Source: an uncultured Acidobacteriota bacterium
GTDB taxonomy: Bacteria > Acidobacteriota > CAIWXX01
DNA: 64,000 bases
NCBI GenBank assembly: GCA_903916735.1
Contig: CAIWXX010000082.1
Location: 1-64,000 of the forward strand
Reading direction: 5' to 3'
The position numbers and the translations under genes are program-made. The notes below the pieces were generated by a model that ran no database searches, was not told the DNA's origin, and saw only the letters and a program-made list of their open reading frames with translations. This document shows, piece after piece, positions 21,050-37,600 of the stretch; position 1 is the first letter of the stretch, and every line of letters starts with the position of its first letter.

Positions 21050-21119
21050 GAGCATTCGCGATTATGCCCTATCACAGGTCTTGCCATTTTGTACACAGAT
21101 TTCACCGATTAGGCACTAA
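21050..21119 (-). repeat. Dispersed intergenic repeat of about 60-75 bp, copy A
   Basis: The reverse strand of 21061-21120 aligns without gaps to 37409-37468 at roughly 80% identity. Shared runs include ATCGGTGAAAT and ACAAAATGGCAA. Similarity fades toward 21045. It begins at the cysE stop codon. Confidence 0.7.
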
Positions 21120-22042: not shown

Positions 22043-22401
22043 ATCTCTATCTCCTCTGTCTCTCTTCTCTCATTCACTGAGCGATTATAGCAGAGGATAG
22101 AAAGTGCCGCCGCGTAACGGAGGAGGGCGCCGAAATCCGCGGATAAGGAATGGCGGCAAGCCATCAGATAATCTCGATAGACCCGGCATGACGGCTCGGC
22201 AGGAGCCTCGCCCTCCCAAACCATCGATCAGGGTAATGCTTGATATGCAGAGGAGATGGCTCGGCATCCTCGTGAGGGCCATGCCCGCAGAGGCTTCGAA
22301 GCCATTTTGTCGCAACAGGCGTGTGCTTACTCGTGGATAGGTGGGGCTGATAGCGCCTTGACTTCCTAGGCAGCGGATGGTAGAAATACACCGCCCTGAG
22401 C
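22043..22401. other. Intergenic region upstream of tRNA-Asp with a REP-like element
   Basis: I find no gene. A GC-rich REP-like palindrome lies at 22193-22218. Frames crossing it give the GRGSCRA/EGEAPAEP peptides often mis-annotated from such repeats. Confidence 0.6.
22193..22218. repeat. REP-like palindrome
   Basis: GGCTCGGCAGGAGCC followed by TCGCCCTCCCA resembles, with changes, the AGCCGGC...GCCGGCGCTCCCAGG elements around the transposase at 483-1214. This suggests a non-autonomous relative mobilised by a RAYT. Confidence 0.5.
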
Positions 22402-22478
22402 GGGGTCGTAGTTCAGCTGGTTAGAACGCCGGCCTGTCACGCCGGAGGTCGCGAGTTCGAGTCTCGTCGGCCCCGCCA
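22402..22478 (+). tRNA. tRNA-Asp (GTC)
   Basis: A 77-nt cloverleaf: the acceptor stem GGGGTCG pairs with CGGCCCC, the D-arm is GTTCAGCTGGTTAGAAC, the anticodon stem CCGGC/GCCGG closes loop CTGTCAC with anticodon GTC at 22436-22438, the T-arm is GCGAGTTCGAGTCTCGT, and CCA is encoded. Confidence 0.97.
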
Positions 22479-25986: not shown

Positions 25987-26328
25987 ATGTATAATTTGAG
26001 GCAATTTTTGAACGCCATTGGGAATTTTAGGAAAAGCGCCCTTCTCACTCTCATGTTCGGATTCCTCTTCAGCGCACGCAGTGCGTCGCCAGCCGTCCAT
26101 GAGGGGGATTTAATATTCCAAACTTCGCTTTCTACCCAGAGCATAGAAATTCAGCGCGCTACCGGTTCTCTCTACAGTCATATGGGAATCATCTTCTTTG
26201 ATAATGGCAAGCCATTCGTCTTCGAAGCGAAACTACTGGGTCGTCCTGCAGAGAGAGCGATGCGCGATAGACGGGTGCTTCCACTTCGATTCGCCACAGA
26301 ACGTGGTTCACACACTTCTTCTCTTTAA
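25987..26328 (+). pseudogene. Truncated YiiX/YebB-like (NlpC/P60-related) cysteine hydrolase
   Basis: The 113-codon frame has a hydrophobic leader, then [20 protein letters not shown] and [20 protein letters not shown], which are the N-terminal half of YiiX/YebB-like C92 hydrolases with the catalytic His in YSHMGI. The sequence then loses similarity ([12 protein letters not shown] onward) and stops where the family should continue for another 60-100 residues with its second catalytic region. This looks like a 3'-truncated remnant. The surrounding 25860-26040 stretch is unusually AT-rich. Confidence 0.55.
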
Positions 26329-26371: not shown

Positions 26372-29083
26372 ATGGGCAAGAAACTGTCTCAAGTTCTCGA
26401 AGAATCCGGAATTCCTTTGAATTTTCAAGCCGGCGGCACAGCATCCGGCGAGGTGGCGAATCGGGAGATCACACGCGAGCCGGGTGAGCGAGCCAAGAAA
26501 CTGAGGGATCTCTATTTCCAGACGCTTTCATCCGCCACTAATGAATTCCCATATTGGTATACACGCAAATACCGGGAGCTCGACAACGAAGTCCCGGTCG
26601 TCCGCCGTGCATTAGCTTTGAAGACGGCATTTTCCCACCTCACTCCGGTCATCTATCCGGGAGAGTTGCTTGTGATGGGCAAGGCATCCTACTACCGCGG
26701 GTCGTTCCCGATGCCCTGGCTCTCTGAGGGCTATTACATGGCGCGGGAAGATGAGTTATATCAAGCCGCACTCGCTCGCGGCAGCGCCAGCGCCGATGAA
26801 GTTTCAAAGTTCGGTGCCGGCGGCGGAAACGTGACTCGGGATTTCGGGAAGGTCATATCCATCGCCGGAAAATTCGGGATGCGGCGCGAAGAAGTCCCCG
26901 CCATGCTCAAAGTGGCGAGAGAATGGGTGAATAAATCTGTCGACGACCTCGGGCACAAATACGAGCAAATGGTTCCCGGCTACGATATCAAAGAAGCCAT
27001 CATGCGGTCCGTGGTCTGCATGTTCGACTCGGGCTACACGCTGCCGCAGGGGCGTGAAGTCATCAACTACTACTATCCGCTCCAGTACGGCTTCGACGGG
27101 CTGATGGCGATTGCACGGGAGAAAAAGGCCGATGTCGCCGGAAAACCCGGCGGCGACGGCATGACCGGCATGAACCGCCTTTATAACTACGAAGCCGTTA
27201 TCCACGTGCTCGAAGGAATCCAGGCATGGATCCTTAATTATGCAAAGGAAGCACGACGGCTCGAATCCATCGAAGAGAACCCGCAACAGAAGCGGGAATA
27301 TGGAGAAATCGTCGAGTGCCTCGACTGGATCGCGCACCATCAGCCTCGGACATTCCGCGAGGCACTGCAGCTGAGCTGGATCATTCACATCGCCGTGCTC
27401 AATGAGGATGCCATTTCCGGCTTGTCCCCGGGTCGCCTGGGCCAGGTGCTCTCTCCGTGGTTCGAACAAGACATCGAATCCGGTGGAATCACCGAGCGCG
27501 AAGTCATCGAGCTACTCGAATGCATGCGAGTCAAATTCACATGCATCGATTGTTTCGCGTCAATGGGTGTCGTTGGAGGCGTCCTCTCGGGCAATACCTT
27601 CAACAACCTGAGCATCGGCGGGCTCACGCCGGACGGCAAACCCGCGTGCAACAGGCTCGAGACGCTCATCCTCGAAGCATCTATTTCCTGCATGACCACG
27701 CAGCCCACACTGACCGTGCTCTATGACGACAAGCTGCCCGAGGATTTTCTCCTCAAAGCAATCGAATGCGTCAAGACGGGCACCGGCTACCCTGCATTCG
27801 TCAATAACCGGGTGGCGGTAGAATTCCTCATGAATCACTATCGACCCGAAGGAATGACGCTCGATGAAGCCCGGTCCTTCGCCATCGGCGGTTGCCTTGA
27901 AACATCGCCCTGTTCCTGGATGCCGCTCACGTTGAACGGCAAGAAAAGCATGATTCCCGGCGGATCGGGTCAGCCGACCAGCGTCGGCGTTCATTTTATC
28001 TCGCTGCCCAAAATCCTCGAGCTGACGCTCTTTGACGGGATGGATCACCGGACCGGGATCCGGGTATTCCCTGCGCATGAAAAAAAACTCGATACTTTCG
28101 AAGAGCTTTTCAATCAGGTCAAAGCCTATTTCGCGAAATCAGTGGAAGTCCTGTCACTCACCAATAACATTCAGCACGATATCTGGCGGAAGAACAACAT
28201 GGCTGTTTTCAATTCCGTTCTGAAACCTGATTGCCTGGAGAAGGGCCACCTCATCAACGAGCTGGGATATCGTTATAACGCGACTCACAACGTTGAAATC
28301 TGCGCAGCAATCAACCTTGTCAACAGTCTGGCCGCGCTGAAGAAGATCGTCTACGAGGACAAAATCCATTCTCTCGATGAGATGCGTGAAGCGATCAGGG
28401 CCAATTTTGGATTCAAAAACGCGTCCGAAGTGGGATCTTTCTCGCTCGCCGATCAGGAAAAGCACGACAAAGATGACCGGTTCGATCGGATTCATCATCT
28501 CTGCCTGACGGCCCCTAAATATGGCAATGATGACCCTTATGTCGATTCCATCCTCAGGGAATGGGAAAACTGGTTCTGTACGATGTGCTACGACTTCGAA
28601 TCCCTGAATGCAAGGAAATACTATTCCTGCCAGATATCCGTTTCGACGCATGCACCTATGGGCGCCGCCACGTTGGCTTCGCCTGATGGAAGACTCAGCG
28701 GGACGACATTCGCCGATGGATCCATGTCGGCGTATCCCGGCACCGACCGCAAAGGCCCTTACGCTCTCTTCACATCGGCCACATGCTGGGACCATTCCAA
28801 ATCTCAGAATTCTCAAATGAATTTCAAAGTCCATCCGACGGCCGTGCGCGGAGTCGCGGGATCGCGGAAGCTCCTGGAGTTAACGCGAGCGTATCTGCGG
28901 AATGGTGGATTTCACATTCAGTATAATGTAGTGGACTCACGTGTGCTCAAGGACGCTCAAGCGCGTCCTGATCAGTACCGCGACCTGCTCGTGCGGGTGG
29001 CGGGGTTCACTCAGTATTGGGTCGAAATCGGGAAACCCATACAAGACGAAGTTATCGCCCGGACTGAATACGAGAGGGTTTGA
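26372..29083 (+). CDS. hpdB: 4-hydroxyphenylacetate decarboxylase large subunit (glycyl-radical enzyme)
   Basis: This 903-residue glycyl-radical enzyme would decarboxylate 4-hydroxyphenylacetate to p-cresol under anoxic conditions. The thiyl Cys and adjacent Glu lie in GGCLETSP (Cys508, Glu510) and the radical Gly is in [12 protein letters not shown] (Gly878). Compared with the Clostridium scatologenes enzyme as I remember it (Cys503, Glu505, His536, Glu637, Gly873, Ser344, Phe405), all seven occur here at a constant +5 offset, including His541 and Glu642 of the substrate pocket. The start at 26372 has GAGGGGG upstream; the frame opens earlier without family similarity. The small subunit gene overlaps its stop by one base and the activase follows. 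Phenylacetate and indoleacetate decarboxylases are the alternatives; the small subunit and pocket favour the hydroxyphenyl substrate. Confidence 0.88.
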
Positions 29084-29367
29084 TGGTAAGCGAGACACTG
29101 ACCCATATGGATTGCCGGAATTATGCCCCCGTAGATGCCGCTAAAGGCATCTGTCACAGGACCAAACAATTGGTCGTGGCCGATGATCATCGATGCGATG
29201 CTTTCACTAAACTCCCCAAGTGCAAGCACTGCGAGCATTATCTGGCCGGCAAAGAGCTCTATACCGGCATCTGCCGCGCCGTCAAAGACACCCCGATGAC
29301 ATACCCTGACCTCGCAGCCGTCACCTGTGACTGGTTCCAGTGGAATGACAGGAAGCCCCAAAAATAA
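29083..29367 (+). CDS. hpdC: 4-hydroxyphenylacetate decarboxylase small subunit, two [4Fe-4S] clusters
   Basis: This 94-residue iron-sulfur protein is the partner unique to the Hpd branch of glycyl-radical decarboxylases. It retains the eight-ligand pattern: HMDC (His8, Cys11), KGIC, HRC for the first cluster; KCKHC, GIC and TCDW for the second. The family length is about 85-95. The ATG at 29083 overlaps the hpdB stop (TGATG), implying tight stoichiometric coupling. In the Clostridium enzyme the small subunit stabilises the complex and may control the radical. Its presence is the best genomic mark separating this from phenylacetate or indoleacetate decarboxylases. Confidence 0.88.
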   Translation: MVSETLTHMDCRNYAPVDAAKGICHRTKQLVVADDHRCDAFTKLPKCKHCEHYLAGKELYTGICRAVKDTPMTYPDLAAVTCDWFQWNDRKPQK

Positions 29368-30310
29368 CAGCCATGACACCGAGCCGATGGGCGTCATTTT
29401 CGATATCCAGGGGTACTCTGTTCATGATGGCCCCGGTTGCCGGACCGTGGTGTTTCTCAGCGGCTGTCCTCTGAGGTGCCTCTGGTGCGCCAATCCCGAA
29501 GGACTTGCACTGAACCCCAAGCTGCTGTTTTTGCAAACCCAATGCCGGCACGATTGCCGTCGCTGTGCGGATGCATGCCATCATAATGCCGTCGCATTCA
29601 CCCGGGAAGGGCATCCGCAGTTTGATCGTTCCCGTTGTGATCGGTGTGCAGCATTCGAGTGTGTCGCAGCATGCTTCAATGGCGCTCTGAGGATTGCCGG
29701 AAAGACGATCCTGCTTCCGGATCTTATGAAGATCCTCAATCGGGATAGGAACTTCTGGGGTGAGAAGGGTGGGGTGACATTTGGAGGCGGCGAGCCGTTA
29801 TTTCAGAAGGATTTCGTTCTTGCGGCATTGAAACAATGCCGGGACGCGTATATTCACACAGCCCTCGAAACGTCGGCCCATGTTGAAGGCGGGGTTTTCC
29901 AAGAAGCTCTCCGCTGGACTGATTGGCTGTTCATTGATCTCAAGCAGATGGATGAGGAGGCTCATCGGAGAGCAACCGGGATCGGAAATGTACTCATCCT
30001 CAGGAATCTCGCATCGATTGCCTCTTTGGGCTGGCCGGGGCGAGCCATCGTCCGTATTCCAATTGTTCCCGAGTTTAATGACAGCTCTGAGAACATTAGA
30101 AAATCGGCGGAGTTTCTCCACTCCGTGGGTTTGCATGAGGTCCAGCTCCTCCCCTTTCACCGGCTCGGGAGTTCAAAATACCGCCAGCTGGGAATGGCAT
30201 TTGATCTCGATGAGTTGAAGCCGCCATCTGATGAATCGATGAGAGTCATTGCAGAGATCTTCATCTCTAAAGGCTTTTCCTGCTACATCGATCACGAAGC
30301 GCCGTTCTGA
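29345..30310 (+). CDS. hpdA: Glycyl-radical-enzyme activase (radical SAM), Hpd type
   Basis: This 321-residue radical SAM protein generates the glycyl radical on HpdB. The SAM-cluster motif is SGCPLRCLWCANPEG (C-x3-C-x2-C). A ferredoxin-like insert follows with two further cluster motifs, CRHDCRRCADAC and CDRCAAFECVAAC, as in HpdA and other long activases. GGGEPLF and the IPIVPEFND strands complete the barrel. I take the ATG at 29345, which overlaps hpdC by 23 bp; MGVIFDIQGYSVHDGPG at 29387 is an alternative start. With hpdB and hpdC it makes a compact three-gene unit. Confidence 0.88.
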   Translation: MTGSPKNNSHDTEPMGVIFDIQGYSVHDGPGCRTVVFLSGCPLRCLWCANPEGLALNPKLLFLQTQCRHDCRRCADACHHNAVAFTREGHPQFDRSRCDRCAAFECVAACFNGALRIAGKTILLPDLMKILNRDRNFWGEKGGVTFGGGEPLFQKDFVLAALKQCRDAYIHTALETSAHVEGGVFQEALRWTDWLFIDLKQMDEEAHRRATGIGNVLILRNLASIASLGWPGRAIVRIPIVPEFNDSSENIRKSAEFLHSVGLHEVQLLPFHRLGSSKYRQLGMAFDLDELKPPSDESMRVIAEIFISKGFSCYIDHEAPF

Positions 30311-30511
30311 GGACAGATCACTCATAGGTTGTGGAATTCGATGATGGTATTGCGGTGTGAGTCATGACGACGGCCAGGATGGAGCTCCGGGGTCTGTTGA
30401 TCACCGAAAAGGAGAAAGGCTGTTTCAGGGCTTGAACAGTTTCGATGGCATCGTGACATCGAAAGGTTCGCCCGATGTCGAGGATTATCCATGCGAGCCG
30501 GATACATTATC

Positions 30512-30541
30512 TTGACAGTGCCGATTGGTCGGCACTAAGAT
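30512..30541 (+). promoter_or_regulatory. Sigma70-type promoter with a palindromic operator as spacer
   Basis: TTGACA at 30512-30517 and TAAGAT at 30536-30541 are separated by 18 nt. Those 18 nt, GTGCCGATTGGTCGGCAC, form a perfect 7-bp inverted repeat around TTGG. It lies 180 bp before the TonB-receptor start and is the only strong promoter-like match I see in that gap. Confidence 0.6.
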
Positions 30542-30720
30542 GACAATCTTGCATCGGGGACGATCAACAGTCCCTCGAAAACACACGATTAAATTTCTCA
30601 CCTTAACGGATGGGGAAATGGCAACGAATGAACTTGCCTGCTCATTCTCCAGAGAATCTAGCCCGCGGACTTTCTCAAAATGAAAAAAACAATACATCTA
30701 TTTTTTCAGGAGGTGAAGCT

Positions 30721-33700
30721 GTGAAGAAACACACACGGCTGTCTTTGCCTATGTGTTTCGCTATCGCGATCGTCATAATCCTTGGCTGCATCCGCGTTTC
30801 CGCTCAATCGATTCAGTACGGGAAATTGACCGGATCGATCACGGCGGAGACCGGTGAAGCACTCCCGGGTGTATCGGTTGAGATCAGCAGCCCTGCCCTT
30901 GTCAGCGGGACACGATCGACGACCACCACGATTACGGGTTCCTATGTTTTTCTCAATTTGCCGGTCGGCGTGTACAAAATCACGGCGACGCTGGAGGGAT
31001 TCAAGACGGCCATTCATGAGGGTATCGTCATTGACGCCGGCTCTGCGGCGACGATCGATATTCCGATGGCAGTGGGGGGAATCAATGAAAGCATCACCGT
31101 GACGGCGACGGGTCCGGTCATCGACACCCGGAACTCGACGGTCGAAACGAGACTCGACAAGGAGCTCATCGAGAAACTGCCGACGAGCCGTGATGCTTTC
31201 TATGATCTGGCACTGACGGCTCCCGGCATGTTCGATGCGGGCAAGGATGCCAGCTGGCTGCCCAGTCCGACTGCCTATGGCAGCGGGACCAATGAAAACG
31301 CCTTTCTGGTCAACGGCGTCAATACGACGAACCCGCGAGGTGGATCCTTCGGATCCCTGGTCAACGTCAACTACAACGCCATCGAAGAAGTCAGGATTGT
31401 CTCGCTGGGCGCAAAAGCCGAATACGGCAGTTCAACCGGCGTGGCGGTCGACGTCATCACGAAATCAGGAAGCAATGAGCTCGGCGGCAACGTGAGCGTT
31501 TTCTCCCAGCTCGGCACCCCCTCCGACAATATGCCCGATCCAAGCAATTTCGATGATAGAGGCTGGTTGGTGCTCGATCCCACCACCCATCTCGTGAGCA
31601 AAACACATAAGGACGAGGAATTCAACGCAACCCTGGGCGGCCCGATCGTCAAGAATAAAGCCTGGTTTTATGGTGGGTTCGATTATGTTCGCGAAGATCT
31701 GAAGAAGCCTCTATGGCCTGTTATTCTGAGCAGCAAGGGCCGCTATGCCGACATCAAGGTCACGACAGAGCCTTTGAAAAACAACCGTGCCTGGATGGCT
31801 TATCACTTCGAGCGAGGCACGGATTCCGGGGACACGTGGGGCGATAATGTACCGTGGGATTCCGAGCTTCAATTCGGCGATGCCAAAACCAACCATACAA
31901 TTTCATCCGAGTGGCAGTGGTTCCCGAGCTCGACAAATCTTCTTACATTCAAGTACCTCGGCTTCTGGACCGACTGGAATCCCAACCCACCCGAAAACGC
32001 GCCGCAAAATCCCGGCTACATCAACTGGTGGAAATGGCAGGCGTTCGGCGTCAATGGGCATTTCCCGTTTATAGAAGGCCGCAATGCGAACCGCCAGACG
32101 ATCCAGGCCGATTTTTCGAAGTATATCGAAGATTTCCTGGGCGAACAGGATATCAAGTTCGGAGTTCAATATACGAAAGGCCACGATAATGAGCTTAACG
32201 GCTATTTCGTTGGATACGGAAATTTCGCCTATCCTCTCCGATGGAATCAGGACATCAATTATTGTGTACAGAACTATGGCGACACCGGCATGCTGTGGTA
32301 TGTCAACCAGACATTCCTCCCTCCCACGTTGACAGCCACTCAGTTCAAGCAGGGTGGGTTCTTTTTCGATGACCAGTGGACCCCCATGAAGCGCTTGACC
32401 GTCAACGTGGGGCTCCGCTTCGACAACATGTCGAACAAGTACGGCATCGGGAAAGTCTATGACAATCCAACATCGCCGAACGATGTTCCCGACAATCTTC
32501 GAGTGGTCCGCGATCGAAAGGGCACGGACAATGTTTTTGATTTCAACAATTGGTCTCCGCGAATCGGAGCGACCTACACGATCACCGAGGATGGAAAGAC
32601 GGTTGTTCGAGGCAACTTCGGTCGATACTATTCGCCTGTCGGCACGGAGAACCTGCGACGAGTCGGGCCGGATATGCCGCTGCTCCGGACTCACGAACTT
32701 TACATGAACATCCCATGGGATCTTGTCGATCTCAATCACAACGGCTATATCGATCCTGAAGAAGTCACCGCCGCGGCACGGCTGTTGAAGGGCAGGACTC
32801 CCTACGCTGATAAATGGACCGAGTCCGATCCGTCGTGGCTATGTAAGGTGGCTCCGGGCACAAAGAATCAGTTCTCCGATCAATTGACCTGCAACTTCGA
32901 ACGGGAGATCATGCGGGATCTCTCTTTCTCCGCCACATTCATGCATAAGCGCACAGGAAACATCCTCATGAACTGGCCGATCAACCGTGCAACCGGGAAG
33001 CCGTACGAATACGAACGGAAACACTGGACGACGCCATATGGCAGAGAGGTTGATCTCTACAGCATTGTCTGGAAGGACTACAATGGCGACGGTGTCGTTG
33101 ATTTGAATGACGTCGAGTGGATCAACCTGAATACCGATTACGTTGTCCAGAACCTGCCGAAAGGGTTTGAGGGAATCGACTCAGACCGAACCTTCAACGG
33201 CCTGCAGTTTGTGTTGAACAAGCACTATGCCGATCGCTGGCAGATGCTTTTCTCGTTCCTCTATTCCGATTCCAATGGGCCGGCAAACCGCACCAACTAT
33301 CAGGATTGGAACATCGAAGGGCCGGAGATCATGGACGCCGCTTTCGTCAGCAGCCCCAATCAGCTCCTTAATAATACGGGCCCTTTGCCGTTCACGTCCA
33401 AATACGAGGTCAAGCTTTCCGGGACGTATCAAATCCCCAAGACCGGGATCGATGTGGGAGCACGCTTTAGATACAACTCGGGGCGCGCCTACTGGTTCCT
33501 CGCCGAATATCCTCGCATTACGCCCGACACGCAACCAGTAAACGGCGTCATCGATACCGGTAATTTGATCGTCGGCATCGACCCAAACAAACCTCTGCGC
33601 CTGCCTCCGGAGAAGATCCTTGATCTCAGATTGGAACGTACAATCGACATGGGGAAATACAATAACCTCACCGTGAGTTTTGATGTCTTCAACATTTTCA

Positions 33701-33807
33701 ACTCCAATACCGTCGTGAACGCCGACTATCAATATGACCCGGGCAAGGTGACCGCTGTCGTTGCTCCTCCACGCAAATTCAAACTCGGTGTTTCCTATAC
33801 ATTCTAG
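30721..33807 (+). CDS. TonB-dependent outer-membrane receptor with N-terminal carboxypeptidase-regulatory domain
   Basis: This 1028-residue outer-membrane protein has a signal peptide (cleavage after RVSAQ), a CarboxypepD_reg beta-sandwich (GKLTGSITAETGEALPGVSV), a plug domain (RLDKELIEKLPTSRDAFYDL, FLVNGVNTTNP) and a long barrel ending in aromatic PRKFKLGVSYTF. The start is the GTG at 30721 with TCAGGAGGTGA immediately upstream; the frame opens 37 codons earlier. This large form, lacking an obvious TonB box, is the Acidobacteriota/OMP-repeat type that takes up oligosaccharides or peptides. The ExbB/ExbD/TonB set is at 53133-55510. Next to a glucosaminidase operon, a chitosan- or chitin-derived ligand is a reasonable guess. 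A terminator follows. Confidence 0.9.
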   Translation: MKKHTRLSLPMCFAIAIVIILGCIRVSAQSIQYGKLTGSITAETGEALPGVSVEISSPALVSGTRSTTTTITGSYVFLNLPVGVYKITATLEGFKTAIHEGIVIDAGSAATIDIPMAVGGINESITVTATGPVIDTRNSTVETRLDKELIEKLPTSRDAFYDLALTAPGMFDAGKDASWLPSPTAYGSGTNENAFLVNGVNTTNPRGGSFGSLVNVNYNAIEEVRIVSLGAKAEYGSSTGVAVDVITKSGSNELGGNVSVFSQLGTPSDNMPDPSNFDDRGWLVLDPTTHLVSKTHKDEEFNATLGGPIVKNKAWFYGGFDYVREDLKKPLWPVILSSKGRYADIKVTTEPLKNNRAWMAYHFERGTDSGDTWGDNVPWDSELQFGDAKTNHTISSEWQWFPSSTNLLTFKYLGFWTDWNPNPPENAPQNPGYINWWKWQAFGVNGHFPFIEGRNANRQTIQADFSKYIEDFLGEQDIKFGVQYTKGHDNELNGYFVGYGNFAYPLRWNQDINYCVQNYGDTGMLWYVNQTFLPPTLTATQFKQGGFFFDDQWTPMKRLTVNVGLRFDNMSNKYGIGKVYDNPTSPNDVPDNLRVVRDRKGTDNVFDFNNWSPRIGATYTITEDGKTVVRGNFGRYYSPVGTENLRRVGPDMPLLRTHELYMNIPWDLVDLNHNGYIDPEEVTAAARLLKGRTPYADKWTESDPSWLCKVAPGTKNQFSDQLTCNFEREIMRDLSFSATFMHKRTGNILMNWPINRATGKPYEYERKHWTTPYGREVDLYSIVWKDYNGDGVVDLNDVEWINLNTDYVVQNLPKGFEGIDSDRTFNGLQFVLNKHYADRWQMLFSFLYSDSNGPANRTNYQDWNIEGPEIMDAAFVSSPNQLLNNTGPLPFTSKYEVKLSGTYQIPKTGIDVGARFRYNSGRAYWFLAEYPRITPDTQPVNGVIDTGNLIVGIDPNKPLRLPPEKILDLRLERTIDMGKYNNLTVSFDVFNIFNSNTVVNADYQYDPGKVTAVVAPPRKFKLGVSYTF

Positions 33808-33831
33808 AATCAAGGGGAGCGAACATCAGAT

Positions 33832-33865
33832 GCGGGAAGGCCGGTCAACGACCTTCCTGCTTTTT
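33832..33865 (+). terminator. Rho-independent terminator
   Basis: GCGGGAAGG (33832-33840) pairs with CCTTCCTGC (33852-33860), with one mismatch, and is followed by TTTTT. It ends the TonB-receptor transcript. Confidence 0.8.
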
Positions 33866-34062
33866 CAAATGGCCCTGGGGTATCGATCGGTTTCAGGGAT
33901 TTCATCGCCCCCTTTTATCGGACGAAGATGACTGAGAGGCATCGCCGGTCATGGCCGCTCTCGGCTCTCCGCCAACGCCGTTTTCCTTCAATGAGATTCC
34001 CGCTGGACATATGAGGTTCGCTCGGTGATGCGTATCAGAATTCTCTCTTGTAGAATGCACGC

Positions 34063-36432
34063 ATGACCAAGATGAAATTTGTCCGGCGGGGTTTGCTTGG
34101 GTTCGCCGGCATCGCCGCATGCGCCGGCGCCGCGTTTCTGATATATCGGCATAGACTCTTGCCCGATCGCTCAATGACCGAGTCATTGAAGGAACTCGCA
34201 CTCTCTCAGCCAAACGTTGTCATCATCACCATGGACACGACGCGTTCCGATCATCTGTCCTGCTACGGATCCGTGGAAAGTGAAACTCCAAATCTGGATG
34301 CGATTGCCCGACAGGGCATCCTTTTCCGCCAGTGCATCACAGCAGCCCCATTGACGCTGCCCTCCCACTGCTCAATCATGACGGGTCTCTATCCCACTTA
34401 TCATGGCGTCAGAGTCAACGGCAACACGGCGCTCTCTTCGGTGAGCACGACGATGGCCGAGGTCTTCGCCAAGAGTGGCTATCATTGTGGAGCGTTCATC
34501 GGGGCCTTTGTCCTCGACGGGCGCTGGGGCCTGAATCAAGGATTCCACAACTACGATGACCAGTTCGATTTAAAAAAATATAAAAAACTGGACCTCGGCC
34601 TCGTCCAAAGGCCCGGAAATCAGGTCATGGACGCGGCATTGAAGTGGCTCGACGGAGTGGCTGAAAAGCCGTTTTTCGCATGGATTCATCTCTATGATCC
34701 TCATACGCCCTATGAGCCGCCCGAACCCTATCTATCGCGATACGCATATCGAGGCATCAGAGGGCTCTACGATGGCGAAATCGGGTTTATGGACGAACAG
34801 ATCGGCCGTTGCATGGAATGGCTTCGCCAGAAGGGACTCGACAGCAAGACCATCGTGGCGCTCGTGGGAGATCATGGGGAAGGATTGGGCGAGCACGGAG
34901 AATTGACTCATGGATATTATATTTACGATGACGTCGTTCACGTGCCTTTTTTGATGTCGACTCCTTTCAAATCGCTACAGGGAGTCGATGTCTCCACTCA
35001 AGTGAGAACCATCGATATCTTTCCGACCTTGTGCGAAGCGGCAGGCATTCCCGTGCCGAAGGAAGTGCAGGGGAAATCGCTCTGGCCTGTTGTCGCTCAA
35101 GGTGGGAAAGGCGATGATCTCCCCGCCTACAGCGAATCGCTCACACCCAGTCTGCAATATGGTTGGAGTCCCCTGTTCAGCCTGCGCAGTGCCGGATACC
35201 AATACATCGATGCGCCGCGCGCCGAGCTGTATGATCTGAAAAATGATCCCGGAGAACAGATCAATCTGAACGCGACATCTCCTCTTTCAGCTCAGAAAAT
35301 GGAAAAAGCGCTGCATGAGATCATCGCAACATCCAGTACTGGTGCACCTGTGCCCGTGGCCGCCGATCTGGATAAAGAAACAATCGAACGGCTGGCAAGC
35401 CTTGGATATGTGGGCGCGCCGCTGCCTCAACCATCTCCATCAAATTCCGGCAAAGGCTTGATTGATCCCAAGGATATGTTCGATGTTTATGATTCCATTC
35501 AAAAAGCCGGAGAGCTGAACAATAGCGAGCAATATGTTCAGGCGGCCGGTATTCTGGAGTCCGTCATCAAGATTGATCCGGAAAACCCACAAGCCCGACT
35601 GCAGCTCGCAGCCGCCTATGTTGAATTGAACCGCCCGGCTGAGGCCCAGGAGCATCTTGATCATATTCTTAAACGTGATCCCAACAACATCCATGCCCTG
35701 ATCTGCCTCGCCAACATTCTTCAAAAGCAAGGCCGGCCGGACGACGTGATCGGTCTCTGCGAGAAAGCCATACAGGTCGATCAACGGAACACACAGGCAT
35801 ACTCGCTGATCGGCGAATCCTATATGGATGAGAATAAGTTCGATCAAGCCCTGCCCTCTCTTGAAAAGGCCCTCGCCATTCAACCGAAACTCACTCAGAA
35901 TCGCCTCAACCTCGCGGCCTGTCTCATCGGGTTGAAACAGTACAGCCGTGCTGAAAGCATGCTCGATGAACTGATCAAAGAATCCCCAAAATTCCCTCTG
36001 GCTCACTTTCATCTGGGGCTACTGTTCGAAGAACAAGGGGAGATGCAAAAAGCCAGTCAGGCATATCAGGACGAGATCACCCTCTATGGCAACAGTTATC
36101 GAGCGCGTTTCAATCTCGGGCGACTTCTCCTCAGTCAGGGAAACCTGCAAGGTTATCTTGATCAGATGAAGGAAGTCGTTCGCATCGCTCCACAGAATCC
36201 CCTTGGGCGCCTCTTTCTGGCTCGAGGTCTTCTGCGCAAGGGGATCGATAACGACGACGTGCTGGATATGGTTCGACAAGGACTATCTTTTGCGCGGACA
36301 ACCGAACAGAAAGCCCTTGGCTATTTCCTTCTGGCCGATCTTTATAACCGCCGGAACCAGCCACAGATAGCGCGTGAAGCCTTAGAAAAAGCGGATGCTT
36401 TCAAATCACAGTTAACTGGGAGAACTCAATGA
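34063..36432 (+). CDS. Sulfatase-superfamily hydrolase fused to TPR repeats
   Basis: This 789-residue membrane-anchored protein (hydrophobic segment about 10-27) has an alkaline-phosphatase-superfamily domain to about residue 440: NVVIITMDTTRSDHLSCYG with the first metal Asp residues, and ALVGDHGEGLGEHGELTHGY with the second metal site. At the nucleophile position the formylglycine signature C/S-x-P-x-R is replaced by TLPSHCSIMTGLYP, so Thr is the candidate nucleophile and Arg is His. I therefore avoid calling it a true sulfatase. Residues of about 475-780 are about eight TPR units. The pattern is common in Acidobacteriota. It overlaps the next TPR gene by 4 bp (ATGA). Substrate unknown. Confidence 0.85.
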   Translation: MTKMKFVRRGLLGFAGIAACAGAAFLIYRHRLLPDRSMTESLKELALSQPNVVIITMDTTRSDHLSCYGSVESETPNLDAIARQGILFRQCITAAPLTLPSHCSIMTGLYPTYHGVRVNGNTALSSVSTTMAEVFAKSGYHCGAFIGAFVLDGRWGLNQGFHNYDDQFDLKKYKKLDLGLVQRPGNQVMDAALKWLDGVAEKPFFAWIHLYDPHTPYEPPEPYLSRYAYRGIRGLYDGEIGFMDEQIGRCMEWLRQKGLDSKTIVALVGDHGEGLGEHGELTHGYYIYDDVVHVPFLMSTPFKSLQGVDVSTQVRTIDIFPTLCEAAGIPVPKEVQGKSLWPVVAQGGKGDDLPAYSESLTPSLQYGWSPLFSLRSAGYQYIDAPRAELYDLKNDPGEQINLNATSPLSAQKMEKALHEIIATSSTGAPVPVAADLDKETIERLASLGYVGAPLPQPSPSNSGKGLIDPKDMFDVYDSIQKAGELNNSEQYVQAAGILESVIKIDPENPQARLQLAAAYVELNRPAEAQEHLDHILKRDPNNIHALICLANILQKQGRPDDVIGLCEKAIQVDQRNTQAYSLIGESYMDENKFDQALPSLEKALAIQPKLTQNRLNLAACLIGLKQYSRAESMLDELIKESPKFPLAHFHLGLLFEEQGEMQKASQAYQDEITLYGNSYRARFNLGRLLLSQGNLQGYLDQMKEVVRIAPQNPLGRLFLARGLLRKGIDNDDVLDMVRQGLSFARTTEQKALGYFLLADLYNRRNQPQIAREALEKADAFKSQLTGRTQ

Positions 36433-37385
36433 AGACAACCCTTTGTTTCATACGGCCATTTCCGGCCCTCTCTGTATTGCTCCTCTTCTCTTTATTGCTT
36501 CACGCACAATACCGAGAATATGTCATCACAGGCAAGATCCTGAATAAGGATGGGAATGCTCTGCCCGGCGTTGAGATCCAACTTCGGGATAAGGAAACGG
36601 CCCGCAGCTTTTCCATGAAGACCGACGACAAAGGTGACTTTAAGCTCGCCGGATTGCCGCATGGAATCTATGAAGCCTCCATCACCAAACAGGGCTATCA
36701 AAGCAGGACAGAGGAGTGGAACTTTGCGGCACCGCAGGAACGAATGCAAAAATCCGAAATCCCACCCATCCGCCTGTTGACTCGGGACCAAGTCGAGCAA
36801 ATTGAAACCTCTCAGGAGCTCAGAACAGAGTTCACGGAGGCGAAGGAAAAAATTCAAAAACAGGATTTTGACGGAGCTTTAATCATCCTGAAAAAGATGC
36901 TCGACAAAGACCCCAAAGATCCGAATGCGCTTTATCTCAGCGGCATTTGCGATTTCGAAAGAGAGAAGTATCCCGAGGCGATCGAGCTTTTCAATCGGGT
37001 TTGCGCCATCAATCCGAAATTTGCCGGCGCTTATATCCACCTGGGTCTCTGTCACCAAAAGCTCAAGGACCAGGGCAACGCCATTCTCAATTATCAAAAA
37101 TCATTGGATCTCGATCCAAACAATCTTGTCAGTGTCGCCAACCTCGGATTCATATATTACGAACAGGGCAAAGTCGCCGAGGCGATTCCTTTGCTGGAAC
37201 TGGCGTTGAAGCAGAAACCAGACGATGAAGAAATACTGGAAACGACCGGGCTTTGCTATGTCAACCAGGGCAATTTTCCAAAAGCACTCGACGATCTTGA
37301 AAAGGCGAAAAGCCTGACAAAAAATCCCGATAAGATCCAGACACTCGATACGCTGATTGAATCGCTGAAAGCCCAGGCGAAATGA
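36429..37385 (+). CDS. Exported carboxypeptidase-regulatory plus TPR protein
   Basis: This 318-residue protein has a signal peptide (residues 1-26, LLHAQ), a CarboxypepD_reg beta-sandwich at about 30-120 (GKILNKDGNALPGVEIQL, MKTDDKGDFKLAGLPHGIYE) and five TPR units from about 135 to 315 (DPNALYLSGICDFEREKYPE, FAGAYIHLGLCHQKLKDQGN, NLGFIYYEQGKVAEAIPLLE). It probably acts as a periplasmic scaffold. The start overlaps the stop of the sulfatase-TPR gene, so the two are translationally coupled. The beta-sandwich echoes that of the TonB receptor upstream. Confidence 0.85.
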   Translation: MKTTLCFIRPFPALSVLLLFSLLLHAQYREYVITGKILNKDGNALPGVEIQLRDKETARSFSMKTDDKGDFKLAGLPHGIYEASITKQGYQSRTEEWNFAAPQERMQKSEIPPIRLLTRDQVEQIETSQELRTEFTEAKEKIQKQDFDGALIILKKMLDKDPKDPNALYLSGICDFEREKYPEAIELFNRVCAINPKFAGAYIHLGLCHQKLKDQGNAILNYQKSLDLDPNNLVSVANLGFIYYEQGKVAEAIPLLELALKQKPDDEEILETTGLCYVNQGNFPKALDDLEKAKSLTKNPDKIQTLDTLIESLKAQAK

Positions 37386-37408: not shown

Positions 37409-37480
37409 CTTAGTATCTGATCGGTGAAATTTGTGCACAAAATGGCAAAAGCTGTGATCAGGCAGAATCGTGAATTCCTG
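37409..37480 (+). repeat. Dispersed intergenic repeat of about 60-75 bp, copy B
   Basis: It aligns without gaps to the reverse strand of 21061-21120. It contains TTTGTGCACAAA, a perfect 12-bp palindrome that is degraded in copy A. It lies just after a stop codon, as copy A does. Confidence 0.7.
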
Positions 37481-37600
37481 AGAGGTTCGGATGCAATGGT
37501 TGTCGAAGCCATCTTGTTTGGTTGCGGCTATGCCGCGCAAGGAATCGATCAAATCCCGCGGCCTTCCGTCAGGCTGCGCCTTCTCATGGGGGGATTACAA

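Follow-up and report, generated by a model that had tools for sequence, protein, structure and literature searches.

The question raised by this locus is whether a palindrome lying between the two boxes of a receptor promoter is the target of a dedicated dimeric regulator, as a first-pass annotation had proposed, or an incidental feature of an ordinary promoter. In the window (the whole 64,000-nt stretch of DNA that was analysed), the -35 box TTGACA (30512–30517, + strand) is preceded by C, giving CTTGACA. It is followed by the 18-nt spacer GTGCCGATTGGTCGGCAC (30518–30535, +), an inverted repeat whose 7-bp arms enclose TTGG, and by the -10 box TAAGAT (30536–30541, +). The coordinates, the boxes and the 18-nt distance had all been given exactly, while the statement that the whole spacer is an inverted repeat holds for the perfect arms GTGCCGA/TCGGCAC and fails for the TTGG that they flank, which is non-symmetric. 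The dyad centre coincides exactly with the spacer centre, and the last base of the -35 box together with the first base of the -10 box lengthens the arms to 8 bp (AGTGCCGA/TCGGCACT). An extended dyad, TTATCTT-(GAC)-AGTGCCGA-TTGG-TCGGCACT-AAGATGA (30507–30543, no strand), spans both boxes, its outer CTT/AAG pairing being given by the CTTGACA and TAAGAT boxes themselves; folded alone, 30506–30547 scores z -4.9 on one strand and -5.7 on the other.

The boxes match sigma-70-type hexamers at 10 of 12 positions, the spacer is within the 16–18 nt criterion, and this is the only promoter-like match on either strand of 30200–30900, where shuffled sequences average 0.8. The gene which the promoter was said to face is a real TonB-dependent receptor gene (30721–33807, +) with CarboxypepD_reg, Plug and OMP_b-brl_4 domains, most likely starting at the GTG at 30721 behind AGGAGG (30708–30713) rather than at the ATG at 30610, and this part of the annotation is upheld, as is the sigma-70-type promoter. 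RNA polymerase would bind CTTGACA/TAAGAT and begin near 30548, about 7 nt past the -10 box, to yield a predicted leader of about 173 nt (30548–30720, +), the predicted fold of which (z -2.0) was equalled by 4 of 100 shuffles.

Position is the property of this promoter that is shared with distant relatives. An orthologue search found matches at E 1e-60 or better in 13 of 247 sampled genomes of the phylum. The 19 matches comprise seven orthologues (50–54% identity), the receptor itself, a paralogue in the same genome (56%), and ten at 29–34% identity that were left out of the upstream comparison. Three further orthologues (48–54% identity), from contigs named Candidatus Aminicenantes, brought the total to ten, with start codons picked by script. 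CTTGACA is present 162–248 nt ahead of the start codon in all ten orthologues examined (-210 in the window), and the paralogue has CTTGACC at -97; the frequency of CTTGACA is 0.04 per 400 nt in the orthologue loci, with the matches themselves counted in, and 0.0125 in the window. A -10-like hexamer was placed by script 17–19 nt past CTTGACA in eight of the ten, at 19 nt in five of them, and TATTAG was recognised by eye at the -10 position in the remaining two. The ten are not independent, since the upstream regions of three (L022, L023 and L025) are nearly identical. Among the matches listed no close relative with the same receptor gene was found, the orthologues being 48–54% identical at the protein level. 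Within its own genome, CTTGACA-N18-TAAGAT with at most one mismatch occurs at 11 sites, that of the window included, versus 1 for the reversed pattern. These results support the prediction that a sigma-70-type promoter precedes the receptor, at about the same place as in distant orthologues, and what they offer is a promoter, conserved in position, for a TonB receptor that Candidatus Aminicenantes genomes also have.

The reading that we prefer, with a probability of about 0.52, is that this is an ordinary sigma-70-type receptor promoter whose palindrome is a by-product of a larger foldback, or chance, and not the dedicated target of a regulator. The annotation had made the spacer the operator of a dimeric regulator, and one form of this proposal involves a TetR-, LacI- or GntR-like repressor, a helix-turn-helix protein acting as a dimer from a gene elsewhere in the genome, which would block polymerase at the dyad until a ligand releases it. 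Operators of repressors that overlap the spacer form a general class of sigma-70 promoter regulation, and the geometry in the window would likewise let a dimer block polymerase, the arms being perfect and exactly centred in an otherwise strong promoter. This is the main rival explanation, which we regard as possible, if somewhat doubtful. Unlike such operators, the site in the window has no regulator that could be found for it, no second site and no conservation. The suggestion that the promoter may couple receptor synthesis to a ligand drew no support from these data. By script, the spacer arms are 2–4 bp long in the eight scoreable orthologues and 3 bp in the paralogue, all of them distant relatives, so that the palindrome, whose conservation upstream of orthologues had been named as the test of the operator proposal, is absent from every spacer scored. 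The exact sequence GTGCCGA-N4-TCGGCAC occurs once in the 5.37-Mb genome, which leaves no second copy for autoregulation and none upstream of other receptors or of a regulator gene, where the annotation had suggested looking. Near matches are not in excess either: at two mismatches or fewer there are 21 sites in the genome versus 31 for the reversed control, and the two sites with one mismatch fall within open frames from a mechanical listing.

Of 297 genomes of the phylum, 11 contain the exact palindrome, at 12 sites versus 4 for the reversed control, an unexplained excess which speaks for an operator. On the other side, no promoter context was seen by eye at ten of the eleven sites outside the window, with no TTGACA/TANNNT abutting the palindrome; the second site of genome G104 was left unread. 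Several of the phylum copies sit, by eye, in hairpin-like repeats. A regulon of the palindrome was considered and rejected on the single exact genome site, the missing excess of near matches and the ten phylum sites outside promoters. Pfam scans of 27 window proteins, which also bear against a spacer operator, found no MerR, TetR or LacI protein; what they did detect were histidine kinases, a response regulator of the LytTR type and a ROK protein for which no DNA-binding domain was reported. The 26-bp element that was said to have TCGGC/GCCGA half-sites as well could not be found, a search with one arrangement of them giving 0 matches. As far as could be seen from these comparisons, the palindrome is lineage-specific and occurs in the promoter of this genome alone, and any function for it is putative.

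The geometry had also been likened to that of MerR-type promoters, where an activator would untwist an over-long spacer. MerR-family promoters are described as having a palindrome in a spacer of 19–20 bp (PMC8113463, PMC1526738), and the window has in common with them an inverted repeat centred between the -35 and -10 boxes. The best -10-like hexamer, 19 nt on in five of the eight scored orthologues, would also suit such a mechanism. Unlike these promoters, the window has an 18-nt spacer and a target that is a TonB receptor beside hpdBCA, and its orthologues are without the spacer palindrome. At E 0.001, MerR_1 (PF13411) has only three matches in the genome, on contigs C117, C149 and C120, and none on the contig of the window (C82). 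Given the spacer length and the lack of a MerR match on the contig, a MerR site was rejected, its probability being very small.

How surprising a palindromic spacer is depends on what it is compared with. There are 10 perfect hairpins with 8-bp arms and loops of 3–8 in the window, so a palindrome by itself is not rare. The 8-bp-arm pattern, at three mismatches or fewer, has one match in the window, and 25 of 100 shuffles give one or more. When promoter-like sites were defined by hexamers and spacing in 1,254,159 bases of this genome (n = 625), spacer arms of at least 7 bp were found at 3 of the 625 sites versus 5 of 5139 in 11 permuted-hexamer controls, and dinucleotide shuffles gave 0.2 such sites per replicate. 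The Fisher p values are 0.047 for arms of at least 7 bp, 0.095 for arms of at least 6 bp and 0.22 for centred arms. Given that the window contains 27 promoter-like sites, such a spacer would turn up at least once by chance with a probability of about 2.6%. The geometry is suggestive, not strongly so, of more than chance, and it would be encountered if many windows were scanned. A frequency of only about 1 in 1000 at control sites favours a spacer operator, while the exact centring and the window-level chance of about 2.6% point to more than accident and count against our preferred reading, as does the weak genome-wide excess of arms of at least 7 bp. Also on that side is a second promoter of similar layout on the same contig (L045:8833–8868, at about 112.8 kb), TTGACA-17-TATTCT with the palindromic spacer ATCTAA-CC-TTAGAT near its centre. 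The gene behind this second promoter is presumably Fur/PerR-like, and the TTAGATATATTCTAA found there resembles an autoregulatory box.

The spacer palindrome lies towards the inside of a larger foldback (30388–30576, no strand); in our preferred reading it would be a by-product of this foldback, or of chance, that happens to sit in a working promoter, probably without a function of its own. The foldback consists of an outer stem (30390–30402/30562–30574), a hairpin (30440–30464), the inner stem CCCGATG/CATCGGG and the promoter dyad. On the + strand, 30388–30576 folds with z -4.74 (0 of 200 shuffles as good), and a slightly longer piece gives -3.91 and -5.00 on the two strands. Cutting out the promoter dyad leaves z at -4.4 for either strand, a value reached by 0 of 100 shuffles. 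Against an origin in the foldback, 30385–30505 alone is unstructured (z -0.6 and -0.9), and the whole 415-nt intergenic stretch (30311–30725) reaches z -1.26 only, 11 of 100 shuffles being as good.

The same fold could be read as RNA, with transcripts reading through from the upstream hpd genes folding across 30388–30576 as an intercistronic stabiliser, a processing site or a switch, the promoter dyad being one arm. We consider this unlikely. Its best evidence is the + strand score just given, to which may be added that no terminator-like site was found in 30200–30900 and that only 4 of 652 tiles of the window (20 shuffles each) reach z -3.9 or lower, one of them over the foldback. That tile scores -4.41 on the minus strand and -3.28 on the plus strand. 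The two strands of the foldback itself fold about equally, as expected of a DNA palindrome, and this argues against an RNA element, as does the low score over the 415-nt stretch. An RNA function would moreover need read-through from hpdA, because a transcript from the internal promoter is without the 5' half of the stems. No Rfam family matched even at E 10, save a chance match outside the foldback, and no convincing relative emerged: a one-sequence covariance model (R1) run with strict filters on 297 genomes returned its own copy and G118 at E 0.055, which was taken as chance, and the model found no relative in 1.17 Mb of its own genome.

Nor did BLAST reveal a second copy of the foldback region in its own genome, where the other matches have E 0.98 or worse, and the fetched part of that genome holds no copy besides the foldback itself; on these two grounds a repeat or mobile element was rejected. 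In 98 relatives and the genome itself, BLAST with 30311–30700 returned short matches only, the best outside the own genome among the matches listed having E 0.0096. The outer arm GGGNCTGTTGATC has 48 matches at one mismatch or fewer versus 7 for its control, with two exact ones outside the element. CTAG is a rare word in bacteria; nothing can be inferred from the excess of GGGNCTGTTGATC, since the reversed control contains CTAG.

When 150 of 190 intergenic gaps in this genome were sampled, 5 of 300 strand-windows had z -3.9 or lower, and four of these five belong to two repeat families. Strong foldbacks, mostly in these families, are on this count not rare in the genome, and in so foldback-rich a setting a palindromic promoter spacer is weak evidence for an operator. 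Should a regulator bind it nevertheless, the palindrome would provide a handle on ligand control of the receptor in a poorly studied group. Copies of the first family, which is about 230 bp long (CCTCTCAGGAATGCAGGAAG ... CTTCCTGAGAGG), were seen in the window at 37409–37537 and 21054–21119 and at L101:5881–6150, and, in 1.25 Mb of the genome, in at least seven further loci (L120, L053, L121, L113, L089, L125 and L124). The second family is represented in the window at 22155–22341, just ahead of a tRNA-Asp gene (22402–22478), and at L136:12251–12385, where it fronts another TonB receptor; there are further copies in L056, L053, L134, L118, L101 and L137.

Upstream of the receptor lies hpdB-hpdC-hpdA (26372–30310, +), encoding 4-hydroxyphenylacetate decarboxylase and its activase. 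Both the large and the small decarboxylase subunits exceed the NCBIfam cut-offs, and the activase, at 406.8 bits, is slightly under its cut-off of 420. This neighbourhood allows a combined reading, in which the promoter sits inside a structured element (30388–30576) and hpd read-through, RNA folding and internal initiation would be mutually exclusive or adjust one another, thereby tying the supply of receptor to anaerobic decarboxylation of 4-hydroxyphenylacetate; we think it improbable. The hpd large subunit was found at E 1e-150 or better in 6 of 396 genomes, the own one included, and in three of the five others (L152, L153 and L155) no counterpart of the foldback was seen by eye in the sequence after hpdA. 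In L152, CTTGACA appears soon after hpdA, ahead of a different gene.

In Clostridioides difficile, the hpdBCA promoter is reported to have, ahead of hpdB, an inverted repeat, AAAAAG-N13-CTTTTT, which shares bases with the -35 box and whose regulator was unknown there (PMC7925072). The window is similar in having an inverted repeat at an hpdBCA-associated promoter; unlike the clostridial repeat, that of the window has another sequence and is placed in the spacer and downstream of hpdA (PMC7925072). Among the titles and the beginnings of abstracts returned by a literature search, no paper was apparently about the present element.

The receptor is followed by genes for a sulfatase-TPR protein, a TPR protein and a GH2 enzyme, and then for MFS and ROK proteins. 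By eye, sulfatase-TPR-like and TPR-like genes stand before the receptor in a relative (G177, locus L156) and after it in the window (30721–37385). Ahead of hpdB there is a short open frame of 113 aa (25987–26328), the product of which we take to resemble a truncated papain-like protein of the YiiX type.

The leaders of the orthologous receptors have features of their own. They share AAAGGAGGTGGGAAT, which was seen by eye in six of the eight loci L022–L026 and L040–L042 and, in looser form, in L041 and L042. In L022–L026 it is followed by a mini-ORF of 10 codons, e.g., MKAVFNRESV, and next in the orthologue leaders comes a stretch that looks like a hairpin, CTTCCTG..CAGGAGGAAG or GTTTCTGCCGGG..CCCGGGAGAAAC. 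The orthologue leaders scanned gave no match to an Rfam family, and the succession of AAAGGAGGTGGGAAT, mini-ORF and hairpin was not seen in the receptor leader of the window. The latter leader has an AT-rich hairpin, TGAAAAAA..TTTTTTCA (30681–30708), which ends at the ribosome site of the receptor and could affect its translation.
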